Positions 4,207-24,416 of a stretch of DNA of 24,894 nt are shown in pieces. Every line of letters begins with the position of its first letter. Position 1 is the stretch's first letter. Below the pieces are notes generated by a model, which searched no databases, was not told the origin of the DNA, and saw only the letters and a list, made by a program, of their open reading frames with translations. The stretch is from positions 1 to 24,894 of the IMG/VR virus record IMGVR_UViG_3300002460_000155; one strand, 5' to 3'. The translations under genes and the position numbers were made by a program. The DNA is from a virus.

Positions 4207-4224
4207 AGAACGAAAGCCCTCAAA
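4207..4224 (+). promoter_or_regulatory. AGAACGAAAG leader motif before the gene at 4225
   Basis: AGAACGA begins 18 nt upstream of ATG 4225 and reads AGAACGAAAGCCCTCAAA up to the ATG. It closely resembles the leader before 13431. This match is the main reason for choosing the 4225 start. Confidence 0.4.
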
Positions 4225-4566
4225 ATGATCAAAAACAGACGCAAGAAGAACAACGGCCAAGTGGTTCACAAGAACGTCTTGATGCCCAGTCATCCTGACA
4301 CTATTATGTTAGGAATAGCCGTTGAACAGAGATTTCTTCGACTTCTTGAAGACCATCTGAGAATTAAGTTTGAAGAAATCCATCCTCCCGTTGAACTTGA
4401 TCCTGATATGCTCCTCTGGAGAGAGATGAGACTGAGACACAGAAAAGGTGACTACAGAAACACGGATGATGAGTTGAAGGCGACTAGAAGAATAGCGGAT
4501 TGGACGCTGAAGGTGAATTGTGAGTTGAAGAATCAGACGTATGTTCCGACGGAATGGAGAGATTGA
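4225..4566 (+). CDS. Hypothetical head-region protein, 113 aa
   Basis: No family recognised. The N-terminus is very basic (MIKNRRKKNNG), followed by a helical, Glu/Leu/Arg-rich body (VEQRFLRLLEDHLRIKFEE, REMRLRHRKGDY). The frame stays open upstream to TTG 4168, and an ATG at 4192 is also possible. I prefer ATG 4225 because a leader motif shared with other genes sits 18 nt upstream, while TTG 4168 has no ribosome binding site. The stop abuts the ATG of the methyltransferase gene directly, so the two are coupled. The charge pattern would suit nucleic-acid or structural protein binding, but no role can be assigned. Confidence 0.65.
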   Translation: MIKNRRKKNNGQVVHKNVLMPSHPDTIMLGIAVEQRFLRLLEDHLRIKFEEIHPPVELDPDMLLWREMRLRHRKGDYRNTDDELKATRRIADWTLKVNCELKNQTYVPTEWRD

Positions 4567-5115
4567 ATGGAAGCAGTCGAACCCAGAATTTTTGATCATC
4601 AGAGAATCCTCACTCGAATTCTGTCTCAGATGGATCGACCGATGGCGGTTGAGGTCGGAGTCGCATCTGGAAATACGAGTGAATATCTTCTCAGAAACTG
4701 TCCAAATCTGTTTTTGGTAATGGTAGACCAATGGCTTTGCCCATCCTCTGGCACCAGAAAAACGCAACAGACGTACGACAGCGCCCGCGAGAAGGCAACA
4801 GAACGGACATCCTTCGCCCAAGACAGAAGGACGGTTGTTCATCATTCTTCGGCGATTGCGGCAGAAGCTTTTAAGGATACGAAGTTTGATTTGATTTTCA
4901 TCGATGCCAGCCATATCTATGAATCGGTCGCTGTTGATTGTTTGGTGTGGTGGCCTAGATTGAAACCAGGTGGAATTTTCTGCGGGCATGATATTGACAG
5001 CAGAAAAGACAAAGAAGGGGTTTGGGGTGTGAGAAAAGCAGTTGAAGAATTCAGTCGAGAGGTAGGTGTACCGTTTGAAGTTGAGAAAAACATTTGGATA
5101 ATGAGGAAGCCTTGA
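4567..5115 (+). CDS. Class I SAM-dependent methyltransferase (Methyltransf_24-like), 182 aa
   Basis: A Rossmann-type methyltransferase is supported by a glycine-rich SAM motif, VEVGVASGNTSEY (residues 28-40), the acidic strand LVMVDQW, and the motif FDLIFIDASHIYESVAVD (107-124) followed by LKPGGIFCGHD (132-142). These IDASH and PGG-GHD patterns are typical of the Methyltransf_24 group, which includes small-molecule and sugar methyltransferases as well as proteins of unknown substrate. The length suits a single domain. There is no DNA methyltransferase DPPY motif, so a DNA target is unlikely. It starts directly after the previous stop, and its TGA overlaps the next ATG. A methyltransferase inside a head gene block is uncommon; it may modify a virion component or be cargo. 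Confidence 0.85.
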   Translation: MEAVEPRIFDHQRILTRILSQMDRPMAVEVGVASGNTSEYLLRNCPNLFLVMVDQWLCPSSGTRKTQQTYDSAREKATERTSFAQDRRTVVHHSSAIAAEAFKDTKFDLIFIDASHIYESVAVDCLVWWPRLKPGGIFCGHDIDSRKDKEGVWGVRKAVEEFSREVGVPFEVEKNIWIMRKP

Positions 5116-5543
5116 TGTCAGCCATTCCTCTACTTTCTGACATCCAACCCGTCAGATATGAATTTCATGACGGAGATCGCGTCCTTTCCAGAGTTTCCGT
5201 TGACTTGACGAAAGACCAATACCAGAGAGTTGAAAGAGCAGTTAAGAAATTCACAAGAGCAGAAGTTCGAGTGTTGATTGTGAACCAGATGAAGGTTAGA
5301 ATTCTTCATCATCGGTTTGGTGGAGCAGTGACGACTCTTGTTGAGCCGGCTTTGAATGAATCTGCATTCGGATTAGGAGTTGCGAATTTGGATTGTTCCG
5401 TGGTGGATTTGAATCCGAATGATACGTTGGTAGTTCAGGTGCCTTTCATCAGTTCAGATTTTCAGAGGCAGACGATTAAAGATTGGATTCAGAGGTGGGC
5501 AGGAAAAGAGGTTGAGGTGGTAGTGAGTGCTCAGGGGATTTGA
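5115..5543 (+). CDS. Hypothetical protein, 142 aa
   Basis: Start is ATG 5115, overlapping the methyltransferase stop by one base (TGATG), with GAGG about 9 nt upstream; a TTG at 5094 is possible but less likely. The sequence alternates beta-type strands (VRYEFHDGDRVLSRVSVDL, VRVLIVNQMKVRILHH, NDTLVVQVPF) with a helical end (IKDWIQRWAGKEVEVVV). No family recognised. The VSVDLTKDQ segment loosely recalls VRIDLTEEEAEE at the start of the next protein, which may mean an old duplication, but the stretch is short. It follows the methyltransferase and directly abuts the next gene. Confidence 0.65.
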   Translation: MSAIPLLSDIQPVRYEFHDGDRVLSRVSVDLTKDQYQRVERAVKKFTRAEVRVLIVNQMKVRILHHRFGGAVTTLVEPALNESAFGLGVANLDCSVVDLNPNDTLVVQVPFISSDFQRQTIKDWIQRWAGKEVEVVVSAQGI

Positions 5544-7115
5544 ATGGCTACGATTTCGACAAGTTTGGTAGGAGACAGACTCAAGGTTAGAATTGATCTG
5601 ACTGAAGAGGAAGCTGAAGAATATGGAATCAAAGCCTTCTGTCCAACAGGACTAGGTGGTGGAGTAGATCCGACTTGTTCAGGAAAAGGCAGTAGTAGAC
5701 CAGGTGAAAAGGAGGCAAGGGAAAACTACAAGAAACTTTCGGAAAAGTATGGCGAGATCAATAAAGATTACATAGCGGCGAGCAAGAAATCTGATAAAGA
5801 CAAAACGCCTGAAGAAAGAGCCTCCGCTGCCGTTGATTTAGCTCGTACAACTAGGTTGAAGTCCGAAGTGTTATTTGATATGACAACTGAACGGATGTCG
5901 GTAGAGGCTTCGGATCCGTTGGCTTACAGATCGGCTCGAGAATCTTATCGGGAAAAGGTGCGGAAATGGCATGAAGAAGAAGAGGCCTTTATCGAGAAGT
6001 TGGTTAAGGACGGTGTGACAAATAGAGAGTATTTTAATCGAATTGATTCAGGTCAGATTGGAAATTGGTATGGTGATCCGAAAGACCCTAAGGTCTTGGA
6101 ATACAGGAGTAAAGATTATCTGGGGTTGAAATCGGAGCATATTGAGGTTGCTATTGATTTGAATAGAAGAAGACCAGATAGGTTTGTTGGTGATAAGAGT
6201 GTCTGGCAGGAGTTTGAAGAATCTCAGAAGAATGCTTATTATGGAGAGTCAACTGTTGTTCGAGATCTTCCAAGAACAGGTGGTTCTGATGCTTATTCGC
6301 TTCCTCCAAAGGCACTTAGAGGAGGAGCAGATGAGACAACTAAGGCTTTCATGGGTCAGGCTGAATTAGGGATTCAAATGAAGTTGAATTCACTTGAAGC
6401 ATTAGCATCTACTCGAGATGGATCATTTAAGAACGGATTTCAGAAGAATGTGGGAAGCGTGGGGAAGGGAAAATCTGGATATTTTCAAACGAGGAAGGAC
6501 AGAGAAGAAGAGATCCACGGAATACCTACATCGGCTTCCGCTGATCAGCGTCCAGTCTCTGGTTATCTCGAACACCCAGATCGAATTCTAAGAACTGGTG
6601 CTGAAATTGGAGGGAATTATGGAGGTGTTCAGGTTGTTCTAAAACCGGAGGTCAAACAGAGAACTACTTTCACGGTAGGTGATTCTCTTGATGATACGGG
6701 TAGAAACGGACTGTTTGCAGGTTCCGTTTCAGATCCACCTTCTCTGAATGGACACCCGACAGGGAAAAGGTTTGCAAGAGACAATCAACCTGTTCCTTCG
6801 TACAATGTATCTAGGAATACGTCCAGAGGTTGGATGACAGGAGGTAGACCATCTAATTCTCCGAGAGATGATTATGATGAGCCTCATGAGGTGTCTCTCA
6901 TCGAAGCTCAGATTTTTGGGAAGACAACGCTCAAGGATGTGAAAGAAATTCGAATACCGCGAGGATGGGCATTGTCAGATAAGGCTGAGAAAAGGTTTCA
7001 GAAAGAGGGAGTTAAGGTGGTTCGTGTTGCTCCTCCTCATCTAGAGGTCTATGCCTCTTCATATTCTTGGGATAGTATGACAGAAGAGCCAGAGGAACAT
7101 AGGAGTCACAAATGA
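5544..7115 (+). CDS. Cys/Gly-tagged phage protein with possible ART-like C-terminal domain, 523 aa
   Basis: About 29 N-terminal residues are followed by a type 1 tag (KAFCPTGLGGGVDPTCS, residues 30-46). A long helical, charged region (55-330) leads into a beta-rich C-terminal domain: RPVSGYLEHPDR (336-347), NYGGVQVVLKPEVKQRTTFT (358-377), GDSL, and EVSLIEAQIFGKTTLKDVKEI. From memory, a YGxVxVxLKxxVxxRTTFTxGDSL pattern with a late EAQIxG strand occurs in phage minor head-associated proteins and resembles ADP-ribosyltransferase-like folds; the catalytic assignment is not secure. ATG follows the preceding TGA directly. Its stop overlaps the next start (ATGA). With the MuF gene it forms a second multi-module virion or cargo protein. 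Confidence 0.7.
   Translation: MATISTSLVGDRLKVRIDLTEEEAEEYGIKAFCPTGLGGGVDPTCSGKGSSRPGEKEARENYKKLSEKYGEINKDYIAASKKSDKDKTPEERASAAVDLARTTRLKSEVLFDMTTERMSVEASDPLAYRSARESYREKVRKWHEEEEAFIEKLVKDGVTNREYFNRIDSGQIGNWYGDPKDPKVLEYRSKDYLGLKSEHIEVAIDLNRRRPDRFVGDKSVWQEFEESQKNAYYGESTVVRDLPRTGGSDAYSLPPKALRGGADETTKAFMGQAELGIQMKLNSLEALASTRDGSFKNGFQKNVGSVGKGKSGYFQTRKDREEEIHGIPTSASADQRPVSGYLEHPDRILRTGAEIGGNYGGVQVVLKPEVKQRTTFTVGDSLDDTGRNGLFAGSVSDPPSLNGHPTGKRFARDNQPVPSYNVSRNTSRGWMTGGRPSNSPRDDYDEPHEVSLIEAQIFGKTTLKDVKEIRIPRGWALSDKAEKRFQKEGVKVVRVAPPHLEVYASSYSWDSMTEEPEEHRSHK
5631..5681 (+). repeat. Cys/Gly boundary peptide, copy 5 (type 1, diverged end)
   Basis: Encodes KAFCPTGLGGGVDPTCS, then GKGSSRPG in place of GSGG. 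It lies near the N-terminus and precedes the whole helical plus ART-like part of the protein. Confidence 0.8.
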
Positions 7116-7348
7116 TACCAACGACTAAGGCAATCTATCTTAGTGAATCAGATCAGGTTGTTATAGGCGGGGCGAAAGTCCTCGGGTACGATCCAGATTA
7201 CGATCAACCATTGATCGATTTTGGGGCTGAGCTGACTACTCTTGAACAAGCCCGGCGCCAGGCGTGGGATGAGAATGAAGAGAGGTTTACAGAAGATGAA
7301 GTTAAGAAGATCTGGAAGGCTGTTGAAAGGCTGAAGGTGAATGCCTAA
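7112..7348 (+). CDS. Small hypothetical protein, 78 aa
   Basis: ATG overlaps the previous stop by 4 nt (ATGA), a common coupled arrangement. The product is acidic, with a beta-type N-terminus (KAIYLSESDQVVIGGAKVLGYD) and a helical C-terminus (TLEQARRQAWDENEERF, EDEVKKIWKAVERL). No family recognised. It overlaps the next gene by 8 nt. The overlap on both sides argues that it is a real gene rather than a chance frame. Confidence 0.65.
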   Translation: MIPTTKAIYLSESDQVVIGGAKVLGYDPDYDQPLIDFGAELTTLEQARRQAWDENEERFTEDEVKKIWKAVERLKVNA

Positions 7349-7589
7349 AGAACGATTTAACGATGTCATTAAAGACAATGAATCTCTCGTTCTTCTATTG
7401 AGAAATCTGAAGCAGTTCGAAAAGGCGTTCTGTGAGAATATGGTTGAAGGAAGAGATTTTACGATAAGACTTGAGGTGAGGGGTTGTCATGGAAATGTGA
7501 TTCATTGTCGGAACTATGCTGACGCGACAGAACGTCCGTTGAAGGGGAAAGGTGAAAAACTAGAGAGCAAGAATTCAACTTGCGATTAG
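7341..7589 (+). CDS. Small Cys-containing hypothetical protein, 82 aa
   Basis: Start ATG lies inside the end of the preceding gene in another frame (8 nt overlap). The product has an acidic helical N-terminus and a beta-like segment FTIRLEVRGCHGNVIHCRNY with two Cys and two His, then a basic tail ending STCD. A metal site is conceivable but the spacing does not match a known finger. It is the last gene before the 326-nt non-coding gap and its terminator. Confidence 0.6.
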   Translation: MPKERFNDVIKDNESLVLLLRNLKQFEKAFCENMVEGRDFTIRLEVRGCHGNVIHCRNYADATERPLKGKGEKLESKNSTCD

Positions 7590-7609
7590 AGTAGGTTGAT
7601 TCGTATAAT
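7580..7609 (+). promoter_or_regulatory. Sigma70-type promoter
   Basis: TTGCGA (7580-7585) and TATAAT (7604-7609) are separated by 18 nt. The -10 box is perfect, and the surrounding CGTATAATAGA is shared with a second promoter at 24361-24371. The -35 box overlaps the end of the preceding gene. Confidence 0.7.
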
Positions 7610-7715
7610 AGAGGAGAGCAAGACACATTCACCTCTAGTCAGAAAGGCAGGATGAGAAAATGAAGATCTAACTAAATACAATCAATAGCGACGATGCCGA
7701 TTTTACCGTTGGCAA

Positions 7716-7765
7716 AACACCCTCCTAAGAACTCAATCTTAGGAGGGTGTTGTCGTTTTCTTTTT
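7716..7765 (+). terminator. Strong intrinsic terminator
   Basis: AACACCCTCCTAAGA (7716-7730) pairs perfectly over 15 bp with 7737-7751 around a 6-nt loop and is followed by a T-rich tract (TTTTCTTTTT, 7756-7765). It ends transcription from the head module and from the promoter at 7580. Confidence 0.9.
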
Positions 7766-7849: not shown

Positions 7850-7899
7850 AAAGCCTCGTCAACAGTCGAACGTCTAAGTTCCCTGTCAACGAGGCTTTT
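7850..7899 (+). terminator. Second hairpin, possible weak terminator or leader stem
   Basis: AAAGCCTCGT (7850-7859) pairs with ACGAGGCTTT (7889-7898) across a 29-nt loop. Only four T residues follow. It ends 16 nt before ATG 7916, so it may instead shape the leader of that gene. Confidence 0.45.
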
Positions 7900-7915
7900 G
7901 CATTAGAGGAAGAAA

Positions 7916-8497
7916 ATGCCCCACAATAACAACGTCCTTTTCTATTTGGGTCCGACAAATGGGTTGTCCGCTCGTCAGTTGACAATTCGAAGAATGATGA
8001 GGGCAGGAGACGATTCACTTCCTGCGGCGGAATTTGATTCGGACGTGGGGTTGGTTGATACAGAGGAAGTAGCTCTTCCCATCAACCAGATTTACCAAGC
8101 TACTCTCCAGGACACTCGAGCATCTGGGGAAGTGGGCAAGGCAATAGTTTTGAACTTCCACACTGGATCTCTTCAGTTTCCTGGGCCGGCAGCGGATCCG
8201 AGTGAGTCCCTGTTCAGAATTCTTTCGATGGAAGATCTGTCATCGAGCAGCTCTTCTAGTTCGAGTAGTTCTTCGAGCGTCAGTTCTTCAAGCTCTTCTT
8301 CAGTTAGCTCTTCGAGTAGCAGTTCGACGAGCTCTTCGAGTTCTTCGAGCAGCCATAGCTCTTCTAGTCAGAGCAGTGTGAGCTCTGGAAGTAGTTTGAG
8401 CTCGAGTAGTGCCAGCAGTGAGAGTTCGTCGAATTCGTCAAGTTCGAGCAGCTCATCGTCAAGTTCGAGCAGCTCATTGTCTAGCTCGTCGAGTTAA
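7916..8497 (+). CDS. Virion-associated protein with polyserine C-terminal tail, 193 aa
   Basis: ATG is preceded by AGAGGAAGAAA, a good ribosome binding site. Residues 1-108 form a compact domain (VLFYLGPTNGLSARQLTIRRM, then DDSLPAAEFDSDVGLVDTEEVALPINQIYQ) of unknown family. Residues 109-193 are about 83% or more Ser, broken only by V, T, H, Q, G, L, A, E and N, and end SSLSSSSS. The Ser codons mix TCN and AGY freely. The tail resembles that of the protein at 15504-16265. Such tails are disordered and may be glycosylated or mediate surface contact; this is inference. It opens the gene block leading to protease and capsid, so a head decoration or stabilising role is plausible. Confidence 0.7.
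   Translation: MPHNNNVLFYLGPTNGLSARQLTIRRMMRAGDDSLPAAEFDSDVGLVDTEEVALPINQIYQATLQDTRASGEVGKAIVLNFHTGSLQFPGPAADPSESLFRILSMEDLSSSSSSSSSSSSSVSSSSSSSVSSSSSSSTSSSSSSSSHSSSSQSSVSSGSSLSSSSASSESSSNSSSSSSSSSSSSSSLSSSSS
8240..8494 (+). repeat. Polyserine coding tract 1
   Basis: 85 codons, nearly all Ser, with mixed AGY and TCN codons built from imperfect AGTTCTTCGAGC-like units. It encodes the C-terminal tail of the 7916 gene. Confidence 0.85.
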
Positions 8498-8505
8498 TTC
8501 ATCTG

Positions 8506-8524
8506 AGAACGAAAAGGACAGAAA
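8506..8524 (+). promoter_or_regulatory. AGAACGAAAAG leader motif before the gene at 8525
   Basis: AGAACGA begins 19 nt upstream of ATG 8525. The following AAAGGACAGAAA contains the likely ribosome binding site AAAGGA. Confidence 0.45.
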
Positions 8525-8830: not shown

Positions 8831-8834
8831 TCTG

Positions 8835-9134: not shown

Positions 9135-11453
9135 ATGCCTTCTGTTAGAGCCAGAGAGACTGAATCAGGATTCGTAGAGCGTTGTATCCCGGTAGTGATT
9201 TCGGAAGGAACAGCCAAGGATGGAAAGCAGGCTGCGGCCATTTGTCATTCGATGTATCGAGAAAGTAAGAAGATGATTGACGTCAATCAGCAGTTGCTCG
9301 AAAAGATTCAAGAGAGGCAGACGAAGCAGACTCTCTTCAATGAGGGCATTCTGACTGCTGATAGGTGGGTCAAATCTCTTGAGTCTTGTGTAGGGATTGA
9401 TCTCTGTTACCGGTACGCCGCAAAAGGGAATACCAGTTTTAATGATCTTGTGAAGAGAGCATCATCTCTTCTTACTCACAACAATTCAGACATGATTTTG
9501 GAAGAGAATCTCGAGATTAAGGCAGCAAGTAATCTGCGAGATGTTGATCTAAATGATTTGACTCTTCCAAAGAATACGCTAATGCTGTTTCGTCATGTCC
9601 TAACGACACCGAAGAAAGATAGAGATGGTGATGTTCTTAGAACGCAAGGAGCAAAGGCTGATCCAAGAATGCTTCTTTTGTGGCAACACGTCCACACCCT
9701 TCCGATTGGCAAGATGCTTGGAGTGGCAGAACACAATTCGAAGAAGCTTTCACTCTATTCCGCTATCGTCGATATCAATGATTTGGCTCATGATGCAGCC
9801 GTAATGATTGACAATGGGATGGGCAGATTCAGTCACGGGTTTCGAGCGTTGGATTTTATGGAAGTCAAGGAAGATGATAGAAACGGTCGGACGACTTCTC
9901 CAGGAGGATTTGACATCAAGTCCTTCGAGATCATGGAAGAGAGTCTTGTTTCTGTTCCAGCGAACGTCGATTCTCAGACAGAGGAGGTGATCCTGTCTCT
10001 CGTTGAGGGTAAAAAACTCACGAGCTCGTTGATGAAGGGTTACGGAAGTACGATCCGAGAGAAGCGTCCGACTCAATCTGCTGTCGGTGGAAAGATTCCA
10101 TTGCAGCTTGATTTGCAAGTGACGATTAATGGGAAGGCTATCAATTCTGAAGAACGAGAGGAAGAAGATGAGCTCACAACCGAAACCAAACAGACCAGTG
10201 TTGAAACCAAGTGTGCCGGAAAGCCAGATTGTACCTGTGGATGTGGAGGAAAGCCCACACCAGAAAAAACAGATGAAAACTCCGAACACACAGAAGAAAA
10301 AGCATCCGACGACAAGGAAATGAAGATCTGCCCGAAGTGTGGTGGTGAGATTGTCAAGGGGGAGTGTCAGAAGTGTGGTTTTCGAATGGATGTTGTCGAG
10401 AAGAAGAGTGAAGAGATGATTGACGACAAGGCAGTGATTGATGATGAGGTGAAAGCTGTCTATTTGGGCATGGTTTCGGGGAGCTGGGAATACATCGAAT
10501 TAAAACTTCGAGAGACAGCAAAGAAATTCTTGGTATCGAACGGAATTGAAGTTGCCGAGAATTACTACGTAGGGTCAATTGGCACTTTTCCAGATTCTGT
10601 GATTTTGAGTGTGGAGAAGATGGGTGGAGGGCAGCCGCCAACTTACTACAGAGCATCTTGGAAGATGGATAAGTTGGAACCTGTCTACACCGGAACTCCG
10701 AAGTTGGTTGAAATTGATGTTTCGACAACAATTCTCGAGAAGATGGTTGGAAGGAAAGAGGGCAGAGTTCTTTCGAATCGAAACATCATCAATCTGACTC
10801 AGGCTCGTGACAACCTCCAAAGAATCAACGAGACAGAGCATCTTCTCACCAATCCAGGAAAGAAGATGTGCAAGGACGCTCATCGTCTTGTTGATGAGAC
10901 TATTCAGTCAGCGTCCAAACCGTTAGGAGATGTATTGCGTGAGACGTCGGTTTCAGTTACAGCAAAAGACGCAATGGCAATTTTCATCTCGAAAGCGACT
11001 TCAGAGCAGATTGACAAGATGATCAGGTCGCTGACTGCCCTGAAACAGATTGAGACGAGACAGAAAAGAACTGAGGCTTTTCAAAGAATCAAATGTGGCG
11101 GTGAGGGTGGAACGCCCGGACCGTGTCCGACAGGCGGTTCCAAACCTCCTGTCGGAGGGATTTCCGCGAAGGCGAACCATCTAACTGAATTAGCTCACAC
11201 GGCCACTGCCAAGGTAGCACCCTTAAAAAATGAAAGACTTCGACAGTTATCGGATGCGGCACTGGCCGCATCCAAGGCTGGAAACCATGGGGAGGCTATT
11301 GATTTACACACCGCCCTTGCAAAGATGCACCGAGAAAACTGGGCAGGAAGTTCTCGCCAAGAGGGACACAAAGATGCGATGAAAGCCCATTCCGCTGCGG
11401 CAGATGCACATTATGAGGCAGAGTATGGGGAGCCAAGAGGATTCGGGCGATAG
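9135..11453 (+). CDS. HK97-type prohead protease (S78-like) with zinc-ribbon, extra domain and Cys/Gly-tagged C-terminal module, 772 aa
   Basis: Residues 1-47 (RCIPVVISEGTAKDGKQAAAICHSMY) match a short N-terminal motif common on phage head proteases. Residues 130-290 are the protease: LWQHVHTLPIGK (candidate catalytic His 185 or 187), RFSHGFRALDF (candidate Ser 233) and EIMEESLVSVPAN (265-277). It should process scaffold and capsid precursors during head maturation. The protein then continues unusually far: Cys cluster CAGKPDCTCGCGG (360-372), zinc ribbon CPKCGG...CQKCGF (399-416), an alpha/beta domain (about 435-540), a helical part, a type 2 tag (653-668) and an Ala/His-rich helical module (about 675-765). 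A normal protease of this family has about 200 residues. The major capsid gene follows after 89 nt. Confidence 0.85.
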   Translation: MPSVRARETESGFVERCIPVVISEGTAKDGKQAAAICHSMYRESKKMIDVNQQLLEKIQERQTKQTLFNEGILTADRWVKSLESCVGIDLCYRYAAKGNTSFNDLVKRASSLLTHNNSDMILEENLEIKAASNLRDVDLNDLTLPKNTLMLFRHVLTTPKKDRDGDVLRTQGAKADPRMLLLWQHVHTLPIGKMLGVAEHNSKKLSLYSAIVDINDLAHDAAVMIDNGMGRFSHGFRALDFMEVKEDDRNGRTTSPGGFDIKSFEIMEESLVSVPANVDSQTEEVILSLVEGKKLTSSLMKGYGSTIREKRPTQSAVGGKIPLQLDLQVTINGKAINSEEREEEDELTTETKQTSVETKCAGKPDCTCGCGGKPTPEKTDENSEHTEEKASDDKEMKICPKCGGEIVKGECQKCGFRMDVVEKKSEEMIDDKAVIDDEVKAVYLGMVSGSWEYIELKLRETAKKFLVSNGIEVAENYYVGSIGTFPDSVILSVEKMGGGQPPTYYRASWKMDKLEPVYTGTPKLVEIDVSTTILEKMVGRKEGRVLSNRNIINLTQARDNLQRINETEHLLTNPGKKMCKDAHRLVDETIQSASKPLGDVLRETSVSVTAKDAMAIFISKATSEQIDKMIRSLTALKQIETRQKRTEAFQRIKCGGEGGTPGPCPTGGSKPPVGGISAKANHLTELAHTATAKVAPLKNERLRQLSDAALAASKAGNHGEAIDLHTALAKMHRENWAGSSRQEGHKDAMKAHSAAADAHYEAEYGEPRGFGR
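11091..11138 (+). repeat. Cys/Gly boundary peptide, copy 6 (type 2)
   Basis: Encodes KCGGEGGTPGPCPTGG at the junction between the protease fusion and its C-terminal helical module. Confidence 0.8.
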
Positions 11454-11522: not shown

Positions 11523-11542
11523 AGAATTGAAAGGCATTGAAA
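11523..11542 (+). promoter_or_regulatory. Leader before the capsid gene, relative of the AGAACGAAAG motif
   Basis: AGAATTGAAAGG begins 20 nt upstream of ATG 11543. It matches the AGAACGAAAGG leaders except for TT in place of C, and AAAGG serves as ribosome binding site. Confidence 0.4.
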
Positions 11543-13273
11543 ATGCTGCTCACAAATCGCGTGAAGAATTGGCTCGTGAAGAATGAGTTCGTGGAAGCGA
11601 GCTCTGAAGACGACCAGTTCCGCAAAGCCGCCGGGGAAGCGATTGCCTCAGGCGAGCTTACGACTGAGAAGTTGATTGAGTTGACTACGACGAAGGAAGA
11701 CAAAGAAGCCGACGAATTCACCACTCTCATGAAGAGTCTGGGTGAGGCTGTCGGTGAGCTGAAGACTGCTCTTCTCGAAGATAACGAGGAAGAAATCGAA
11801 CTCGACGACGAGAAGGATGAAGAGGAAGTCGGGACGAAAGCCAAGAAGAAAAAGAAGCCGGCCCCTGTCATGGAAGATGAAGAGGAGGAAGACGAAGAAG
11901 AGAAGGAAGAGAAGCCCAAGAAGAAGTCGGTTGAACTCATCAAGACGAAGTCCAAGCCGAGCAACCTCGAACGGTTGATCACTCGGATGGGTGGAACTCC
12001 TGACGACGATGAAGAGAAGGAGTTCAGTGTCCGGGTGAAAGAGGCAGCGGAGAGCTATTCATCGACCAAGTCGGCGATGACGTATCCGTCGCACACCCAG
12101 AAGGGAAGGGTTCACCCATGGGCAGGACGCCCGGTGTTGGACTATGGCGAGAAAGGTAGGCAGATCGACAACCCGTCGGACCTTGACAAGGCAATTGCCG
12201 GAGCTTACGGCAAGTTCGCTGTGGCTCACGCGGTGAAGAAGAGCCGCAATTTCGCCTATCTGTCCCTTCCTCAGCATGACAAAGAGTTACTCCACTATGC
12301 GATGGAGAACTCGAAGTGGGGAGGTGTTGGACCTGACGGAGATCCGAAGAAGGAGTATGCGGATATCGTGAATCGGAAGCTCACTCCGCACGAGCAGAAG
12401 GCGTTGATCGACGACTCGACTTCAGGTGGCTTGGAAGCCGCTCCGATTGTGTTCGATGATCAGGTCATTCAGACTCCTCTTCTTCATGGAGAGCTGTTCC
12501 CCTTGGTGAACTCTATTCCTCTCGATAGAGGACGCCGGGTGGAGGGAGTCGCTACGGGAACGGTGACGGGGTCTTGGGGTGGTGTCGATGACACTGCCAT
12601 CGACCTCTTCGACACGACTGCCTATGTGACGGCTTTTGACACCACCATTTTCCGGTGGCAAGGAGCCGTCCGCGTTGGGCTTGACTTCCTCAGCGACACG
12701 CCGATTGACTTCGGAGCTCACCTGACCACTCAGTACGGTGAGAGATTGCTGGAGGACCTCGACGACGTGATCGCGACTGGCAATGGAACGACCCAGCCGG
12801 AAGGCGTCATGGTCAAGTCGGGAACGACGTCAGTGGCGTGGGGAGGAACGACTTCGATCGGCAATTACGAATCGTTGCGGTTTGGAGTTGCGAAGCCTGA
12901 GCATCGAGCGAATCTCAAGGCGACGGCGGTGTTCTGCGGGACGGAAACGAGCTACCAGAGAGCGAAGGCCATTCCGGTCGGAGCCTCGGACGCTCGGCGT
13001 CTGTCGAACACGACGAACATGCCCAATTACGACGATTATTCTTGGATGGACCGTCCGTACAAGATCAATGAGTCGTTGAGCAATGAGCAGATCTTCTACG
13101 CCATTCTTGGACGGTACCGACTTTACAGGCGCCGTGGATTGACCATGAGAACGTCAACTGAGGGTGACACGCTTATTCGCCGTAACGAGATGCTGCTCGT
13201 AGCGACCGCCAGATATGGTGGGCAATTAGAAAGGGGGGCGACGGCGGCGGTCACTTCGACCGCACCGGCGTAA
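11543..13273 (+). CDS. Major capsid protein, HK97 fold, with long charged N-terminal delta domain, 576 aa
   Basis: ATG 11543 is preferred over TTG 11537 because GAAAGG sits 8 nt upstream. Residues 1 to about 155 are highly charged (DDEKDEEEVGTKAKKKKKP, MEDEEEEDEEEKEEKPKKK) and should act as a scaffold-like delta domain removed by the protease upstream. The region after about residue 280 has HK97 capsid features: TSGGLEAAPIVFDDQVIQ, a long spine helix region, RVGLDFLSDTPIDFGAHLT, ERLLEDLDDVIATGNGTTQPEGV and a C-terminal domain ending RRNEMLLVATARYGG. About 576 residues is longer than HK97 gp5 (385). Third positions are visibly more G/C-rich than in its neighbours (AAG, GAC and GAG preferred), fitting strong expression. 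An intrinsic terminator follows. Confidence 0.9.
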   Translation: MLLTNRVKNWLVKNEFVEASSEDDQFRKAAGEAIASGELTTEKLIELTTTKEDKEADEFTTLMKSLGEAVGELKTALLEDNEEEIELDDEKDEEEVGTKAKKKKKPAPVMEDEEEEDEEEKEEKPKKKSVELIKTKSKPSNLERLITRMGGTPDDDEEKEFSVRVKEAAESYSSTKSAMTYPSHTQKGRVHPWAGRPVLDYGEKGRQIDNPSDLDKAIAGAYGKFAVAHAVKKSRNFAYLSLPQHDKELLHYAMENSKWGGVGPDGDPKKEYADIVNRKLTPHEQKALIDDSTSGGLEAAPIVFDDQVIQTPLLHGELFPLVNSIPLDRGRRVEGVATGTVTGSWGGVDDTAIDLFDTTAYVTAFDTTIFRWQGAVRVGLDFLSDTPIDFGAHLTTQYGERLLEDLDDVIATGNGTTQPEGVMVKSGTTSVAWGGTTSIGNYESLRFGVAKPEHRANLKATAVFCGTETSYQRAKAIPVGASDARRLSNTTNMPNYDDYSWMDRPYKINESLSNEQIFYAILGRYRLYRRRGLTMRTSTEGDTLIRRNEMLLVATARYGGQLERGATAAVTSTAPA

Positions 13274-13319: not shown

Positions 13320-13365
13320 CTCGGTCCACCAGGTCTTTCGTTCTTCCTGGTGGTACCGAGTTTTT
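13320..13365 (+). terminator. Intrinsic terminator after the capsid gene
   Basis: CTCGGTCCACCAGG (13320-13333) pairs with CCTGGTGGTACCGAG (13346-13360) with one bulged T and a 12-nt loop, followed by TTTTT. It would limit read-through from the highly expressed capsid gene. Confidence 0.9.
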
Positions 13366-13376
13366 ACACAGAAGAA

Positions 13377-13430
13377 AGAACGATTTCACTCAAAACCGAA
13401 AGAACGAACCCAAGAACGAAAGAGGCTCAA
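13377..13430 (+). promoter_or_regulatory. Triple AGAACGA leader before the gene at 13431
   Basis: AGAACGA occurs at 13377, 13401 and 13413; the last begins 18 nt before ATG 13431 and runs into AGAGG. The block lies between the capsid terminator and the next gene. No convincing -10 box is seen. Confidence 0.45.
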
Positions 13431-14054
13431 ATGTCAACAGGATTGATGGACGAAAAAGTCAAGTCTTCAGTGCTCCCATTCGGCATTGAAATCGACCATC
13501 CAAGAAATTGTGATGTTCTTCTTCAGTGCATTCCGAATGCCCGCCTCAGATCAGCGATTGATGGAACCAAACCCGCCCTCGACAAAAAGACAGGAAACCT
13601 GATCGTTCCGCTTGACCAGAGTAAGGCATTCGCTGCCTTTCCAAGAACTCCTGGAATGCAGATACACGTCAATCCGTCAGAGCTCACCTATGTGATTCTC
13701 GATCCGCTTCACGGTGACAAGGAGATGATCGAACGGATCAAAATGTTCTTCAGGGCCACGTCAGGACAGATTCTCAGTGAGAGATTCGATGGTGTTCCTC
13801 CTCAGAATGGAACCCTCGACGTCCACCGGATGAAGTCTCTGTGTCGAGAGATGGTTTGGTTGGTCAAGGGTGTTGCACCCAATTTCGTTCCTGAGGCAAA
13901 AAGGTGCAAGGGAGCGATTCCAACCCTCACTGATATTGAAGAGTTGCCTGGTCATTTCTTGCTGAACCCAGGCAGTCAAGTAGGGAACACACAACCTCGG
14001 TACGAAAAGGACTGGGACCAGTGGGTTAATCGTTTGTCTGCTGGTGGTGGTTGA
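13431..14054 (+). CDS. Hypothetical head-tail connector-region protein, 207 aa
   Basis: The frame is open further upstream, but through the terminator. The real start is ATG 13431 with AAGAGG 6 nt upstream and the shared leader. The product has mixed alpha/beta character: VLPFGIEIDHPRNCDVLLQCIPNARLR, GNLIVPLDQSKAFAAFPRTPG, MIERIKMFFRATSGQI, then a C-terminal part rich in Pro, Trp and Gly ending NRLSAGGG. No family recognised. The position right after the capsid gene suits a connector or head-completion protein. Its stop overlaps the next start (TGATG). Confidence 0.7.
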   Translation: MSTGLMDEKVKSSVLPFGIEIDHPRNCDVLLQCIPNARLRSAIDGTKPALDKKTGNLIVPLDQSKAFAAFPRTPGMQIHVNPSELTYVILDPLHGDKEMIERIKMFFRATSGQILSERFDGVPPQNGTLDVHRMKSLCREMVWLVKGVAPNFVPEAKRCKGAIPTLTDIEELPGHFLLNPGSQVGNTQPRYEKDWDQWVNRLSAGGG

Positions 14055-14506
14055 TGAACAAAACTTTTGTTATTGGTTGTTTGGATCGTCTATCCAGTCT
14101 TTTTCTGAAATGCGGAGGACCAGGTGGCACGATGGGTCCTTGTCCGACAGGGCAAAAACCTGTTAGTGGGAAAACGTCTGCTCAGGCAAGAGCTGAAACA
14201 GTGGTGGCCAACAATGCGTCAGAACGGGCGGGGCGGCGTGATTTTGGGATTGCCAAGATTCCAGCCAAGGTCATGAGAGATGCTTCCATCGCCGCAAGAA
14301 GAGCAGTAGAAGCCAAGGATCCTTTCAAGGCTCATGAGCACCATCTAGCCGCTTCTCGAGCTCATACTAGAGCAGCAAAATACCACCAGCAGAATGGATC
14401 GGGCCCAGACCACAGAATAGCAGAGTCTGCTCATAATCAAGCAGCGAGGATTCACAATGAAGTGGCGTCCGCTGTGATTGGAATTGGACCAATGGACAGT
14501 GATTGA
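14054..14506 (+). CDS. Short leader plus Cys/Gly tag plus Ala/His-rich helical module, 150 aa
   Basis: Start ATG 14054 overlaps the previous stop by one base; TTG 14051 is an alternative. About 18 residues (MNKTFVIGCLDRLSSLFL) precede the type 2 tag KCGGPGGTMGPCPTGQ, then a helical module with regularly spaced His and Ala (HEHHLAASRAHTRAAKYHQQ, ESAHNQAARIHNEVASA). The module resembles the C-terminus of the protease fusion (LHTALAKMHRENW, KAHSAAADAHYEAEYG), and both follow the same kind of tag. This looks like one mobile module used once as a free protein and once as a fusion. The biochemical function is unknown. Coupling on both sides supports expression with connector genes. Confidence 0.75.
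   Translation: MNKTFVIGCLDRLSSLFLKCGGPGGTMGPCPTGQKPVSGKTSAQARAETVVANNASERAGRRDFGIAKIPAKVMRDASIAARRAVEAKDPFKAHEHHLAASRAHTRAAKYHQQNGSGPDHRIAESAHNQAARIHNEVASAVIGIGPMDSD
14108..14155 (+). repeat. Cys/Gly boundary peptide, copy 7 (type 2)
   Basis: Encodes KCGGPGGTMGPCPTGQ near the N-terminus of the 14054 gene product, preceding its helical module. Confidence 0.8.
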
Positions 14507-15503: not shown

Positions 15504-16265
15504 ATGGCTAGAGCCCTTCAAAGCCCAAAAATCACGTTGCAGATTTCCGCAACGGTGAAGAACACGTCAGCTGTAACCGGACGAACGGCCAGTGGGAATG
15601 TAGCCTATTCGAAAGAAACTTCTCTTGAAGATGGCGTAAGTTCAGGTCAGGCTAATCGGGCATGGGAATGGGAAGGAGAGTTGCTGAGCGGGGCCAGCAT
15701 TACTCTAGATTTGAATACTTTTGCTGGATTTGATCTTGGGGCAGGTGATGGTAAAGATGTTCTTGGTCAGGATCTTGATCCGACTCTTGAAATTGTGGCG
15801 ATTGTCATCAGTAACGAAAATGCCATTAGTGACGATACGGGTATTCTTGAGATCGCTCCTGGAGCCACAAATGGGTGGACGCCTATCGGGACTCATAGTG
15901 CTGCGACGGGTGGAGGGTTGAGAGGGCAAGGTCAGTTATGCAAGACTCAACCGGCAGAGACTGGCTTTGTAATTTCAGGATCCTCAAAGACCATTACCCT
16001 TACCGCAAACGGTGGGGATGTTGATTACAAGGTGACATTGCTCGCTCGTCATGATACGGATGAGAGTTCATCGAGTTCCTCTTCAAGTTCAAGCTCGTCT
16101 AGTAGTTCAAGTTCTAGTTCGTCAAACAGCTCTTCGAGTAGTTCTTCGAGTAGCTCTTCGAGTAGCTCGTCAAGCAGCGTCAGTTCGTCCAGTTCATCTA
16201 GCACCTCAAGTAGTTCTAGTAGTTCATCGTCGAGTTCTAGCTCGTTGAGCAGTTCTTCGAGCTAG
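15504..16265 (+). CDS. Tail or virion-surface protein with polyserine C-terminal tail, 253 aa
   Basis: ATG with AGGAG 8-9 nt upstream. Residues 1-187 form a beta-rich domain (ITLQISATVKNTSAV, WEWEGELLSGASITLDL, TLEIVAIVISNEN, GWTPIGTHSAATGGGLRGQGQLCKTQP, KTITLTANGGDVDYKVTLLARH). Residues 188-253 are almost pure Ser with N, V, T and L and end SSLSSSSS, exactly as in the 7916 gene product, although the DNA differs. From memory, similar GWTPIG-H-A-GG proteins occur in phages with Ser tails, without known function. Its place beside tail tube and terminator genes suggests a tail-associated or decoration protein. Confidence 0.7.
   Translation: MARALQSPKITLQISATVKNTSAVTGRTASGNVAYSKETSLEDGVSSGQANRAWEWEGELLSGASITLDLNTFAGFDLGAGDGKDVLGQDLDPTLEIVAIVISNENAISDDTGILEIAPGATNGWTPIGTHSAATGGGLRGQGQLCKTQPAETGFVISGSSKTITLTANGGDVDYKVTLLARHDTDESSSSSSSSSSSSSSSSSSSSNSSSSSSSSSSSSSSSSSVSSSSSSSTSSSSSSSSSSSSSLSSSSS
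16065..16262 (+). repeat. Polyserine coding tract 2
   Basis: 66 codons, nearly all Ser, mixing TCN and AGY codons. It encodes the C-terminal tail of the 15504 gene. Confidence 0.85.
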
Positions 16266-16733: not shown

Positions 16734-16769
16734 AGAACGAATGATTCTCGAGAACGAAAGAACGAACCC
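16734..16769 (+). promoter_or_regulatory. Triple AGAACGA leader before the chaperone gene
   Basis: AGAACGA occurs at 16734, 16751 and 16759. The second begins 19 nt upstream of ATG 16770 and the third runs into AACCC. Neither a clear Shine-Dalgarno nor a -10 box is seen, so the motif may itself aid initiation. Confidence 0.45.
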
Positions 16770-17429
16770 ATGTCCGAAGATGTCGCTAGGGCAGTAGGAG
16801 CAGCGGGACCTGAAACATTCACTATTGCCGGAAAAGAATGTCAGGTCCGTCCCCTTACAATTCGTGAACTTGCAGAAGTAGAACGAATTTGTATTGAGGA
16901 GTACAAGAGAGCGTACATTAAGACGTTCTCAGACAATCTTGATCTTCTCCCCGAAACCGAAAGATCAGGAATCATCTACAAGGCAACCAAAGAGGCCTCT
17001 GCCTTTGATTCTTCTTCGATGCCTTCAAAATACGCCTATGATCCGAGGCGCCTTCAAGTTACACCAAAGATCAAGGTTTGGTTGGAAGAGAATTTTGATG
17101 GTTTCAAGATCGATCCAAAACTCCCTCAAGACACGATTGACAAGATGTCAAAGAGAGCTGTTGCCACCGTCCTTGAAATGGGGTTGATGGATGATGGATT
17201 GTACGAAAACCTAGTCGGACACCCACCGAAGAAATCAAGAGTCAACTATTTCAGTTGGTGGGTGACAGGAACTCTCGATGGGCAGCTCACCATGGCATGG
17301 ATGGTGGTGAGAGGAAATGGAGTTACCAAAGATGAAGTGGCTAGAGAGCTTTCAGACAATCCTCTGCTCCTGAACGAAATTGCACGTGAGGTTGAGCATC
17401 TATCCGCTCCGGCAGTGGGAAATGGATAG
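16770..17429 (+). CDS. Tail assembly chaperone, short form (gpG-like), 219 aa
   Basis: The protein starts with a beta segment (ETFTIAGKECQVRPLTIRELAEVERI), common in tail chaperones of the gpG type, and is otherwise helical. It lies between the tail-tube candidate and the tape measure gene. Its last codons contain GGGAAAT in the correct 0 frame (G GGA AAT), followed by TAG and a hairpin, so part of the ribosomes should shift -1 and make a longer form. Position, size and slippage signal together make the call firm, although sequence likeness alone would be weak. It chaperones the tape measure protein during tail assembly. Confidence 0.8.
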   Translation: MSEDVARAVGAAGPETFTIAGKECQVRPLTIRELAEVERICIEEYKRAYIKTFSDNLDLLPETERSGIIYKATKEASAFDSSSMPSKYAYDPRRLQVTPKIKVWLEENFDGFKIDPKLPQDTIDKMSKRAVATVLEMGLMDDGLYENLVGHPPKKSRVNYFSWWVTGTLDGQLTMAWMVVRGNGVTKDEVARELSDNPLLLNEIAREVEHLSAPAVGNG

Positions 17430-17467: not shown

Positions 17468-17866
17468 AATGAAGACATCATTTCCGATATGCTATGTGGC
17501 CTTTCCCCAAGAAACATCCGTCGATTGTGTGACAACGTCTTCGATGGAGGGCTTGGATTTTCTCCCCGAGAAGTAGGAGATATGACTCTCGATCAGGCAT
17601 TCATGCTATTGGTTGATAAAGAGAATTTGAGACTAGGTGATCAAAGATCAGTGAAATGTGAGAGTGTTTCTGTTGCGGCTTTGGTAGCCGACAAAGACGG
17701 ATACATCAAGGGTCGATCAGAAGACGGAACTCTTATTAAGGCTAAGATTGGTGGAAAGAGTTTAGCCAGCAGATTGAGAGAAGAAGCTCAAGCCAGAAGA
17801 GACGCTGAAAAGAAGAAACAAGATGAAGACAAGAAGAATAAACGAAAAAACAGACGAGGACGCTAA
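17423..17866 (+). CDS. Tail assembly chaperone, frameshift extension (gpT-like part of GT fusion)
   Basis: This frame is open from 17396 to the stop at 17866 and is entered by the -1 slip at 17417-17423, giving a fusion of 218 + 147 = 365 residues (join 16770..17423, 17423..17866). The first ATG in the frame is at 17489 and has no good ribosome binding site, so independent translation is less likely. The extension has a linker (LTAKKEEGDSEPNED), a compact part (GLSPRNIRRLCDNVFDGGLGFSPREVGDMTLDQAFMLLV) and a basic helical tail ending RKNRRGR. In lambda-like phages the extension recruits tail tube protein to the tape measure. The stop overlaps RNA element B. Confidence 0.8.
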   Translation, partial: WIGLTAKKEEGDSEPNEDIISDMLCGLSPRNIRRLCDNVFDGGLGFSPREVGDMTLDQAFMLLVDKENLRLGDQRSVKCESVSVAALVADKDGYIKGRSEDGTLIKAKIGGKSLASRLREEAQARRDAEKKKQDEDKKNKRKNRRGR

Positions 17867-17960
17867 ACCACACAGTTGTGGCTATAACGCCCACTTTCTG
17901 CCTGCATAATAAAGTACGCGGAAGGTGTAGAAGGCTGTTAAAAGCGTGACTGTGCGGTTT
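17865..17960 (+). ncRNA. Candidate structured RNA element, copy B (upstream of the tape measure gene)
   Basis: Outer stem AAACC-A-CACAGT (17865-17876) pairs with ACTGTG-C-GGTTT (17949-17960), 11 bp around one A-C mismatch. An inner stem pairs AACGCC (17886-17891) with GGCTGTT (17933-17939, one bulged T). The loop core 17902-17922 matches copy A at 18 of 21 positions. It begins in the stop codon of the chaperone extension and ends 6 nt before GTG 17966. It may control translation of the tape measure gene, but this is inference. Confidence 0.5.
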
Positions 17961-17965
17961 AGTGG

Positions 17966-20272
17966 GTGTTAAAACGGAGGTGTGTCATTGGAATAGAACT
18001 CGCCAGAGCTTATGTGAGAATCAGAGGTGATTCTGCAGGTCTCGAAGGAGACTTGAGTGGTGCTCAGACTATGATTGACAATAGTCTCAAGAGCATCGCA
18101 GCCGGAGCTGCCAGTCTACTTGGGACAGTTGCGGCTTTCGGTCGAGGAATCTTTCGAGAAGGATTAGCAGCGGCAGGGGAGTTTGAAAAGACTACAGTTG
18201 AGATGGAGACTATGATTGGGTCTGCAGAAGAGACTCAGAAGACACTAGCCGATCTGACAAAGTTCGCCGTCGAAACTCCTTTTGAAATGCCTCAGCTTCT
18301 TCAGGTCACTCAAGGTCTTATTCAGTTTGGCGAACGTGGTGATGAGTTGATGGAGACGATCAAAATCTTAGGTGATGCTTCTGGAGGAACAGCTTCGAAG
18401 TTCGGTCTTCTTGGATTGGTTTTTAATCAGATTCGTGGTGTTGGGAAACTTCTCACGCAAGACTTTCGCCAGTTGTCAACCAGAGGGATTATTTCTCTTC
18501 AAGACATTGCAAAACACTATAAGGTAACGACAAATGAAGCCCAGAAGATGCTATCGTCTGGAAAGGTTTCGTTTGAAGACTTCAAGAAGATTCTGAAAGA
18601 GTTGACGAGTGAAGGTGGTCGATTTGCCAATATGATGATCAAACAATCAGCGACACTGACAGGTCTTCAGAGTACGTTGAGTGATGCAATCAACATTGCC
18701 AAACGTGGTATTGCGGTGCCGTTGGTTCCTTTTGCCAAGGCTCTTACCACGGCGATGATTCAGTTGGCGAACGCGACAGAGGCTTTCGTCCGCAATGGTG
18801 GAGCGATGGTGTCATTCGGATTTGCAGGAGCGACGGCATTCTCAGTTCTGGGGGCATCAATTTTTGGAGCTACCTTAGCTTTGAAGTTATTAGGAATGAC
18901 CTGGTCAAAATTCTTTCTTGGATTGGTTTACGCTGTTCCTATTATTGCCCTTGGAGCAGCCGTCGGGATGTTAGTAGGCTGGTTAGCTCAATCCAAGACT
19001 GTGATGGATTCCGTGTCTGCTTCCTGGCAGATTTTCTCAAGTTATATAGACATGGCTGCAGATTCTTTCAATGCCTTCGTTTCAGAGCACTACTCAGAAT
19101 TAACAGCCATTAGGGATTTGTTTGTCGAGGTGATGGGCAATCTGGAAGAAACAATAGGCAATTTTGTAATTGCCGCTGGTGAGATGTTTGGTCAGCTCTG
19201 GATGTCGTTTACAGGTTCAACGAAAGGAATGACAGAGACTCTGTTAGATTGGGTTCGAGATTCATTAGATTGGTTAAGCCTCATGTCAACCGATTGGACT
19301 TTGACTTGGGAGTTGATAAAGACGAACGTAGCAATCATTCTGATGAAAATTGCTGATACGGCCCTAGTGGCTTGGAATACTATTGGGGCAGGTGTTCTGG
19401 GTCTTGGTGCCTATATCGGTTCTGTCTTTTCTGACACCTGGGCCTTGATTACTGGAATTTGGCAAGTTGGAATTGATACTCTTGCCTATGGCTGGGATAC
19501 GATGATCAATGGGTTTAAGATCGCTTGGGTGTCATTCAAGGATTTAGTGATTCAGGCAATTGTTGCCATTCTCAAGCCCATGTCTGAATGGGCAGAAAGT
19601 CTTTCGAAGATTTTGTATTTGTCAGGAGTGATTAATCTAGCTCAACGTGAGCAGTTCAAAGCCATGCCTGGTCAGATTGATAAGATTGGGAAAGAGTCAT
19701 CGAAGAGTAAAGAAAAAGAAATGGCAGAGATAGCTGAAGCCCAGAGACAAAGAGATCTTGCTTTTGAAGAAACAGATTCATTGACCGATGTGGTTGGCAG
19801 ATACGCTCAAGTCGGAGCAAATGCTGCAAGAGCTTATGATGCTGCTTTTGCGGCGAATATGGGAGCAGATTCTCCTCTAAAAGGGACGATTGATGTTTTG
19901 ACAAAAGATGCAGATCGCATTAAATCTCAGATGATAGACATTAGGGAAGATCGCAGAAAGAAACGAAAAGACGAGGAAGAAGACGCCGCAAGAAAAGAAC
20001 TAGAAAGACATGCCGGTCGAGGTGGTGTTGATTTCAAGGGAAAAGGAAAAATCGGAGGTGCAGCCGGACCTGACATTGCCAAGGCCTTTGACCTGAAAGA
20101 AGGACGTTATGGATTTCAGGACATCGGAACCAAGATCCAAGATTCACTTCTCGGAAAAGATAAAGATACGGGACAGAAACAAGTCGATCTTGCTCAACAA
20201 GGACTTGAGAAACAAGATGAACTTCTGAAGGCCACCAGAGACAACAAACCCGGTCCAGCCAAATTAGGGTAG
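17966..20272 (+). CDS. Tape measure protein, about 760-768 aa
   Basis: Residues about 70-250 have the phage tape-measure N-terminal domain: FEKTTVEMETMIGSAEETQKTL, FAVETPFEMPQLLQVTQGLIQFG, GDASGGTASKFGLLG, LLTQDFRQLSTRGI and FEDFKKILKELTSEGGRFANMM. Hydrophobic segments lie at about 283-310, 315-342 and 460-490, as usual for these proteins, which set tail length and help pass DNA through the host membrane. The C-terminus is charged and helical. The start is unclear: GTG 17966 is the outermost standard codon and lacks a ribosome binding site. ATT 17987, 6 nt after GGAGG (17976-17980), would give MGIELARAYVRIRG, a more typical beginning. The gene is short for a tape measure, suggesting a tail near 110 nm if about 1.5 A per residue applies. 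Confidence 0.9.
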   Translation: MLKRRCVIGIELARAYVRIRGDSAGLEGDLSGAQTMIDNSLKSIAAGAASLLGTVAAFGRGIFREGLAAAGEFEKTTVEMETMIGSAEETQKTLADLTKFAVETPFEMPQLLQVTQGLIQFGERGDELMETIKILGDASGGTASKFGLLGLVFNQIRGVGKLLTQDFRQLSTRGIISLQDIAKHYKVTTNEAQKMLSSGKVSFEDFKKILKELTSEGGRFANMMIKQSATLTGLQSTLSDAINIAKRGIAVPLVPFAKALTTAMIQLANATEAFVRNGGAMVSFGFAGATAFSVLGASIFGATLALKLLGMTWSKFFLGLVYAVPIIALGAAVGMLVGWLAQSKTVMDSVSASWQIFSSYIDMAADSFNAFVSEHYSELTAIRDLFVEVMGNLEETIGNFVIAAGEMFGQLWMSFTGSTKGMTETLLDWVRDSLDWLSLMSTDWTLTWELIKTNVAIILMKIADTALVAWNTIGAGVLGLGAYIGSVFSDTWALITGIWQVGIDTLAYGWDTMINGFKIAWVSFKDLVIQAIVAILKPMSEWAESLSKILYLSGVINLAQREQFKAMPGQIDKIGKESSKSKEKEMAEIAEAQRQRDLAFEETDSLTDVVGRYAQVGANAARAYDAAFAANMGADSPLKGTIDVLTKDADRIKSQMIDIREDRRKKRKDEEEDAARKELERHAGRGGVDFKGKGKIGGAAGPDIAKAFDLKEGRYGFQDIGTKIQDSLLGKDKDTGQKQVDLAQQGLEKQDELLKATRDNKPGPAKLG

Positions 20273-20273
20273 A

Positions 20274-21266: not shown

Positions 21267-21269
21267 TCA

Positions 21270-23748: not shown

Positions 23749-23749
23749 T

Positions 23750-24034
23750 ATGCCTGATTACATAGGTGTGGTTTCTTTGCGATCTACTTTTCAGAGAATA
23801 GGATGGCATAGAATTCATGTTGAAGAATCATTTGAAGGGTGTGATGAAACCCTTTTGATTTTCCCCTCTTCCGCGTGGGCTTCTTATAAGAACTCAGGAA
23901 TCACATCAGTTCGCGAATGGTGTAGAGTTTTTGGGTTTAGGTGGTGGGGTTTTTCACCTTCAATTATTTCTGAGTCAGGTGAGTTGGTTGTTGATTTGGA
24001 AAATCTAGTTACTCAAGAATATGGATGCTGTTGA
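23750..24034 (+). CDS. Small hypothetical protein, 94 aa
   Basis: ATG 23750 lies 1 nt after the preceding stop; the frame is also open upstream inside that gene but without reason to use it. The product is rich in Trp and Phe (WHRIHVEESF, WCRVFGFRWWGF) and ends EYGCC. No family recognised. The stop overlaps the next ATG (TGATG), so the genes are coupled. Confidence 0.6.
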   Translation: MPDYIGVVSLRSTFQRIGWHRIHVEESFEGCDETLLIFPSSAWASYKNSGITSVREWCRVFGFRWWGFSPSIISESGELVVDLENLVTQEYGCC

Positions 24035-24333
24035 TGTCTGAACTGTCAAGATTCTATTCAGCCAAGAGAAGAGCGAGAATGAAAACCCTCAATCGAGAAC
24101 ATTGTGAAGATTGTGGAGCAGAACTTGCTCTCTCCCGAACTTCTCACTTCTGTCTTCCGTGTGAGCATGACAGAAAATTTGCACCAAAACCGGAAGAAAT
24201 CCAATCAATGTGCCTCGAAATTCAACAAACCTGGTCACCGAGAGAAAGAAAACTTCGAGAAGGAACACTGCACAATCGTGTAGAAATCAAGCAGATTCAA
24301 TTAAATCAAAGACAAACCAGAATTCAAGAGTGA
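24034..24333 (+). CDS. Zinc-ribbon hypothetical protein, 99 aa
   Basis: ATG 24034 overlaps the preceding stop (TGATG). A basic helix (RFYSAKRRARMKTLNREH) leads into a CEDC...CLPC pair (CEDCGAELALSRTSHFCLPC) that should bind one zinc ion; the rest is helical and polar, with Gln and Arg-rich ends. Basic helix plus zinc ribbon would suit nucleic-acid or protein binding, but no role can be assigned. It is the last gene of the coupled block; a gap of 83 nt with a new promoter follows. Confidence 0.65.
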   Translation: MSELSRFYSAKRRARMKTLNREHCEDCGAELALSRTSHFCLPCEHDRKFAPKPEEIQSMCLEIQQTWSPRERKLREGTLHNRVEIKQIQLNQRQTRIQE

Positions 24334-24335
24334 TT

Positions 24336-24368
24336 TTCTGGTGAGTTTTCTGAACTGAACCGTATAAT
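24336..24368 (+). promoter_or_regulatory. Sigma70-type promoter before the DUF6948-like gene
   Basis: TATAAT at 24363-24368 within CGTATAATAGA, the same string as in the promoter at 7580. The -35 region is poor (TTCTGG at 24336-24341, 21 nt away, or GGTGAG at 24340-24345 with 17-nt spacing). It starts a new transcript after the tail genes. Confidence 0.55.
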
Positions 24369-24396
24369 AGAACAGAGGAAGAATACAAGGAACTCA

Positions 24397-24416
24397 AGAA
24401 CGAAAGGGAAAGTGAC
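24397..24416 (+). promoter_or_regulatory. AGAACGAAAG leader motif before the gene at 24417
   Basis: AGAACGA begins 20 nt upstream of ATG 24417 and continues AAGGGAAAGTGAC; AAGGG or GGGAA is the likely ribosome binding site. Confidence 0.45.

Follow-up and report, generated by a model that had tools for sequence, protein, structure and literature searches.

In phages P1 and P7, the c4 RNA is processed out of a transcript that also carries its target, with which it base-pairs at two short sites. Its short complementary stretches, which likely lie in loops, pair around the ribosome binding site (RBS) of a phage mRNA and block translation (PMC12197685). Similarly, a stem-loop of the small RNA OxyS of Escherichia coli pairs with the RBS in the leader of its target fhlA and prevents translation (PMC2946933). 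In Staphylococcus aureus, an anti-Shine-Dalgarno stretch in 3' untranslated regions (3'UTRs) pairs with the Shine-Dalgarno (SD) sequence in cis (icaR) or in trans (RNAIII, RsaE, UCCC motifs) and stops ribosome loading (PMC3868564). Here we analyze IMG/VR record IMGVR_UViG_3300002460_000155, a fragment, 24.9 kb long, from the genome of an uncultivated tailed phage (positions 1 to 24,894; this whole stretch is called the window), in which a hairpin behind the major capsid gene carries a loop complementary to the leaders of other genes. This element would work in a similar way to c4 RNA, OxyS-fhlA and the icaR/RNAIII anti-SD 3'UTRs, and the coat-protein message probably lowers chosen genes by RNA pairing.

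As is likely for c4, a hairpin loop holds a short stretch complementary to the RBS region of a phage mRNA. Known from P1 and P7, c4 regulates an immunity antirepressor and does not terminate a capsid message, whereas the present loop and the leaders of several structural genes show co-variation across about 60 phages. As a stress RNA of the host, OxyS uses Hfq, while the phage hairpin lies at the end of a structural mRNA and its targets appear to be leaders in single-stranded form. While RNAIII, RsaE and icaR share a fixed, C-rich anti-SD seed, the phage seed varies by genome and its targets vary with it. With small RNAs derived from 3'UTRs the locus has in common a seed at the mRNA end, within a hairpin resembling an intrinsic terminator. 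Co-variation is also seen at two further genes, 3 kb downstream and 5-9 kb upstream, which may be targets in trans. The position behind the capsid gene, the strong hairpin and the U run recall Tphi of phage T7, whose loop by inspection is not complementary to the gene 11 leader, whereas the large loop described here carries antisense information. In open-licence papers we found no description of a capsid terminator loop antisense to structural-gene leaders, and Rfam gave neither a family nor homology to c4 or another described RNA family, be it for the window, where a microRNA model scored best (E 0.65), or for eight relatives.

The major capsid protein gene, of the HK97 type (PF05065; Pfam Phage_capsid, E 1.4e-12), occupies positions 11543..13273 on the plus strand, which carries all recognisable genes of the window and all features described below unless stated otherwise. 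The hairpin on the 3' end of its mRNA follows directly, with the order CTCGGTCCACCAGG-TCTTTCGTTCTT-CCTGGTGGTACCGAG-TTTTT at 13320-13365. The 5' arm (13320..13333) and the 3' arm with its T run (13346..13365), which resembles an intrinsic terminator, enclose a 12-nt loop at 13334..13345, and the stem-loop is predicted to fold with about -29 kcal/mol. Because the terminator scan used is limited to loops of 3-8 nt, this hairpin is absent from its output. The entire loop is the exact reverse complement (12/12 nt) of AAGAACGAAAGA at 13412..13423, in the leader of the gene directly behind the hairpin (13431..14054). According to RNA fold prediction the loop is fully unpaired (unpaired probability 1.0) and the leader target sites are mostly unpaired.

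The matched site contains AGAACGA, a heptamer for which a preliminary description had reported a fixed distance to the start codons of genes not coupled by overlaps. This spacing is borne out: the motif starts at 4207, 8506, 13413, 16751 and 24397, that is 18, 19, 18, 19 and 20 nt before the ATGs at 4225, 8525, 13431, 16770 and 24417. Also as described, the leaders of 13431 (13377, 13401, 13413) and 16770 (16734, 16751, 16759) hold three copies each, and a relative of the motif, AGAATTGAAAGG, starts 20 nt before the capsid ATG at 11543. The two-strand count proposed at the time gives 14 copies against 5.7 expected, a number reached in 0 of 100 shuffles. Position bias is evident as well, since nine of the 12 forward copies lie at most 60 nt before a start (binomial p 5e-9, post hoc). 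Together with the absence of a 7-mer common to five leaders from all 2,000 leader shuffles (maximum 4), this makes the observation sound. The supposed link to uncoupled genes holds in part: overlap-coupled genes do lack AGAACGA, but so do the uncoupled starts at 7916, 15504, 16290, 17489 and 17966/17987, and the capsid gene has the relative only. Overlooked until now was the minus-strand copy, the sole perfect one of AGAACGAAAG, which lies at 13335-13344 inside the post-capsid loop. Because the letters of the leader motif follow the complement of the same genome's loop, the motif looks like the target of an antisense loop.

Duplex energies between the loop and all gene leaders of the window single out the same five genes, which reach -11.6 to -16.0 kcal/mol in one register, 20 to 22 nt before the start. 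The strongest duplex (-16.0 kcal/mol) forms at 16750-16761, within the triple-copy stretch 16734..16765, and the next at the 12/12 match before gene 13431 (-15.6 kcal/mol). The remaining sites are those before genes 24417 (24396..24407, -14.7 kcal/mol), 4225 (4206..4217, -13.4 kcal/mol) and 8525 (8505..8516, -11.6 kcal/mol). At every other start the duplex is weaker, the nearest having -10.2 kcal/mol; the capsid leader, a near-match only (11523..11534), has -9.1 kcal/mol.

Relatives were collected by capsid profile searches, which yielded about 75 IMG/VR records, all uncultivated, and 60 loops after removal of duplicates. No capsid relative was found among annotated phages, and GTDB genomes contributed a single remote capsid match in a metagenome-assembled genome of the Porticoccaceae. 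In nearly all relatives a long hairpin with an 8-18 bp stem stands directly behind the capsid gene, often followed by a U run. The loops comprise 6-16 nt and are mostly pyrimidine-rich, while the stems vary freely. Stem, loop and leader sequences all differ among relatives, yet most loops match a leader of their own genome, and the next-gene leader carries the complement of the loop, often two or three times. The heptamer itself, expected earlier to be kept at orthologs, is not conserved; each genome has its own version. Loop and leader read GTTCTTCG/CGAAGAAC in L100, CGTTCTC/GAGAACG with three copies in L108, GGTATTC/GAATACC in L162, CCTGGTCCTT/AAGGACCAGG in L130 (10-nt match), TAGGTTCTC/GAGAACCTA in L119 (9-nt match) and CTCTCGATTCTCC/GGAGAATCGAGAG in L219 (3300033064_004157; 13-nt match). 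The matches in L219, L119 and L130 are unusually long or odd. This little-known family of bacterial viruses has a genome-specific loop, antisense by its letters to a small set of target leaders.

Co-variation was evaluated by pairing each leader with the loop of another genome, a control that keeps compositional and SD-like features. For the next gene, the mean longest match is 7.54 nt with the own loop and 5.39 nt with swapped loops (z 12.7, n=59), and matches of at least 7 nt occur in 76% versus 22%. In a first version of the test (n=60) the observed mean was reached in 0 of 20,000 permutations. The signal remains when the genomes used in noticing the pattern are left aside (z 10.5), when donor loops are limited to the three nearest relatives (p 2.6e-6) and when duplex energies are computed with a second hairpin caller (z -11.8). 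Twelve records that were added afterwards behave alike (own 7.08 versus swapped 5.47 nt, 0/20,000); two of these are near-identical, and one is close to a genome from the earlier set. A generic anti-SD effect, in which a CU-rich loop fits any AG-rich leader, was considered and rejected, as loop swaps, including those between nearest relatives, explain only part of the match. At least 24 changes of loop class are counted on the capsid tree, which means that the pattern does not go back to a single inherited state.

The match is confined to particular genes. Orthologs of 16770, picked with length limits and located about 3 kb behind the loop, follow their own loop (z 8.2, 0/20,000 permutations; z -7.6 by duplex energy), and a weak signal is also present at the orthologs of 4225, which lie 5-9 kb upstream of it (z 2.9, 60/20,000; by duplex energy z -3.4, 6/5,000). 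The capsid's own leader does not follow the loop (z -0.2 by match length, z -0.8 by duplex energy), and neither do the leaders of the 16290 (z -1.1), 15504 and 14503 orthologs. Since distant genes follow the loop while several leaders do not, the match is neither confined to the neighbour of the hairpin nor a genome-wide leader style; the latter possibility is ruled out by the capsid, 15504, 16290 and 14503 leaders. The best sites at 16770 orthologs mostly lie at -10 to -17, on the SD sequence, and those at the next gene fall into two clusters, near -13 to -19 and at -25 to -38.

The comparison itself shows complementarity, its restriction to particular genes and its co-variation among relatives. 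Beyond that, the observations suggest a mechanism in which the 6-16 nt hairpin loop serves as an antisense seed for the RBS regions of a few further structural genes in its own phage, the next gene being addressed in nearly all cases, the one ahead of the tape-measure region often and one far upstream in some. Loop and leader would pair as RNA, and the duplex would hinder binding of the 30S subunit and so reduce translation of the target. The terminated capsid mRNA, expected to be abundant late in infection, could act in trans through its 3' end, and the purpose may be stoichiometry, with the plentiful capsid message holding down low-copy assembly genes. It is very probable that pairing between loop and leader RNA is under selection. 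Given pairing, repression is the likely direction. Trans action is a reasonably probable part of the mechanism, favoured because genes kilobases away follow the loop and because leaders hold more copies than one loop in cis can serve; the window itself has two targets at kilobase distance from the loop. Pairing in cis, on transcripts that read through the hairpin, may exist alongside trans action. Taken as a whole, translational control by a loop that acts as antisense seed for the RBS regions of a small set of other genes, with the capsid 3' end working in trans, is the reading we moderately favour.

Several results weigh against it. At the orthologs of gene 8525, a target in the window, leader and loop show no co-variation (z 0.6), and in seven relatives (L112, L118, L120, L125, L139, L148 and L157) the next gene lacks a convincing match to the loop. 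Masking of the SD sequence alone does not account for every case, because in many relatives the best site lies upstream of it (-25 to -35). A tree-based count of independent pairs leans in the right direction with only four supported pairs, too few for significance, and a comparison of G-U with A-C mismatches did not favour RNA over DNA explanations.

The rival that survives best is pairing in cis only, where the loop would contact the leader just downstream on read-through transcripts, in a pseudoknot-like manner, and set the yield of the next gene, with the distant matches being secondary. The next-gene match is indeed the strongest and most general one, about 30-70 nt separate hairpin and leader, and in the window the interval between the two showed no promoter-like site. 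The separate co-variation of the gene 3 kb downstream and, more weakly, of the gene 5-9 kb upstream speaks against a purely local role, as do the two or three copies in many leaders, of which one loop can pair with only one; we consider this explanation unlikely. Improbable as well is that pairing activates or stabilises the targets by opening a blocked RBS or protecting the mRNA. The sequence does not reveal the direction of an effect. Many sites lie upstream of the SD sequence, from where a small RNA could also activate, but many others overlap it, above all at 16770 orthologs, and the target sites are predicted to be largely open already, which leaves little to open.

The preliminary description had preferred a ribosome-related role of the motif to a promoter. 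A role linked to translation at the ribosome binding region fits, given the fixed distance to the ATG, the overlap with or nearness to the SD sequence and the largely unpaired sites. Its more specific proposal, a ribosome enhancer, an S1 site or an alternative initiation signal, could draw on the 18-20 nt spacing and the purine-rich, accessible sites, and is nevertheless very improbable: the leader letters are not conserved at orthologs while the loop match is, changing with the loop of their own genome. Ordinary SD sequences (GGAG, AGGAG) are present at other window genes and in most relatives, and the capsid gene, expected to be highly expressed, carries no loop-matched motif in the relatives. 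Weakest is an origin at the DNA level, in which template switching or gene conversion maintains an inverted leader copy in the loop with no regulation: template switching is able to make inverted copies and the mismatch comparison does not separate the two kinds of explanation, but in about 60 diverged genomes the copy is found in the hairpin loop and not in its stem or at other places. The match is limited to particular genes, one of them 3 kb away, and pairing to the targets is kept while stems change freely, which makes such an origin scarcely credible.

The proportions of capsid and assembly proteins in tailed phages are usually credited to promoters, frameshifts and RBS strength. If RNA control by the capsid terminator loop holds, a loop addressing the leaders of other structural genes would provide direct RNA feedback from the most abundant product. 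More tentatively, and with somewhat less than even confidence, this phage family may balance its structural proteins through the 3' end of the capsid mRNA, whose genome-specific antisense code would repress a low-copy assembly regulon in trans; code and targets would co-evolve and insulate related phages from each other's signal. A co-varying code of this kind could help to find target regulons in other uncultivated phages and makes the idea open to test by compensatory mutation.

Regarding the target genes themselves, 13431 is conserved in 59 relatives; its product gave neither a PHROGs match nor a viral fold match. Gene 16770 (16770..17429) is placed 3.5 kb behind the loop and immediately ahead of the tape-measure region, and this position is the sole basis for its putative assignment as a tail-assembly chaperone; its predicted model is mostly helical, and searches of PHROGs and viral folds returned no significant match. 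The tape-measure open reading frame (ORF) at 17966-20272 has a TMP_3 match, and a strong long-range hairpin (17850-17990) lies between it and the ORF at 17489. The sites before 8525 and 24417 are candidates, as the former is not conserved at orthologs and the loci of relatives hold no orthologs of the latter, a DUF6948 gene. In many relatives a similar serine-rich coding sequence precedes the 8525 orthologs, and two uncoupled genes of the window (7916-8497 and 15504-16265) have long serine-rich tracts near their C-termini.

Other recognisable genes of the window encode a minor head protein (Phage_Mu_F), tail proteins and, at 9135, a product with a match to head maturation protease. A glycine/proline/cysteine-rich peptide of the AFCPTGPGGGVDPTCGSGG or CGGPGSGRPGPCPGG type is repeated within several unrelated structural proteins (632-4147, 5544-7115, 9135-11453 and 14051-14506). 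Two similar promoter-like TATAATAGA sites occur at 7580-7620, before the intergenic region at 7.6-7.9 kb, and at 24365-24385, before the DUF6948 gene; the first is followed by two strong hairpins at 7716-7751 and about 7852-7905. Tandem GGT-(GAC/TCC/TAC/TCT) repeats extend from 24711 to 24894 and reach the contig end.

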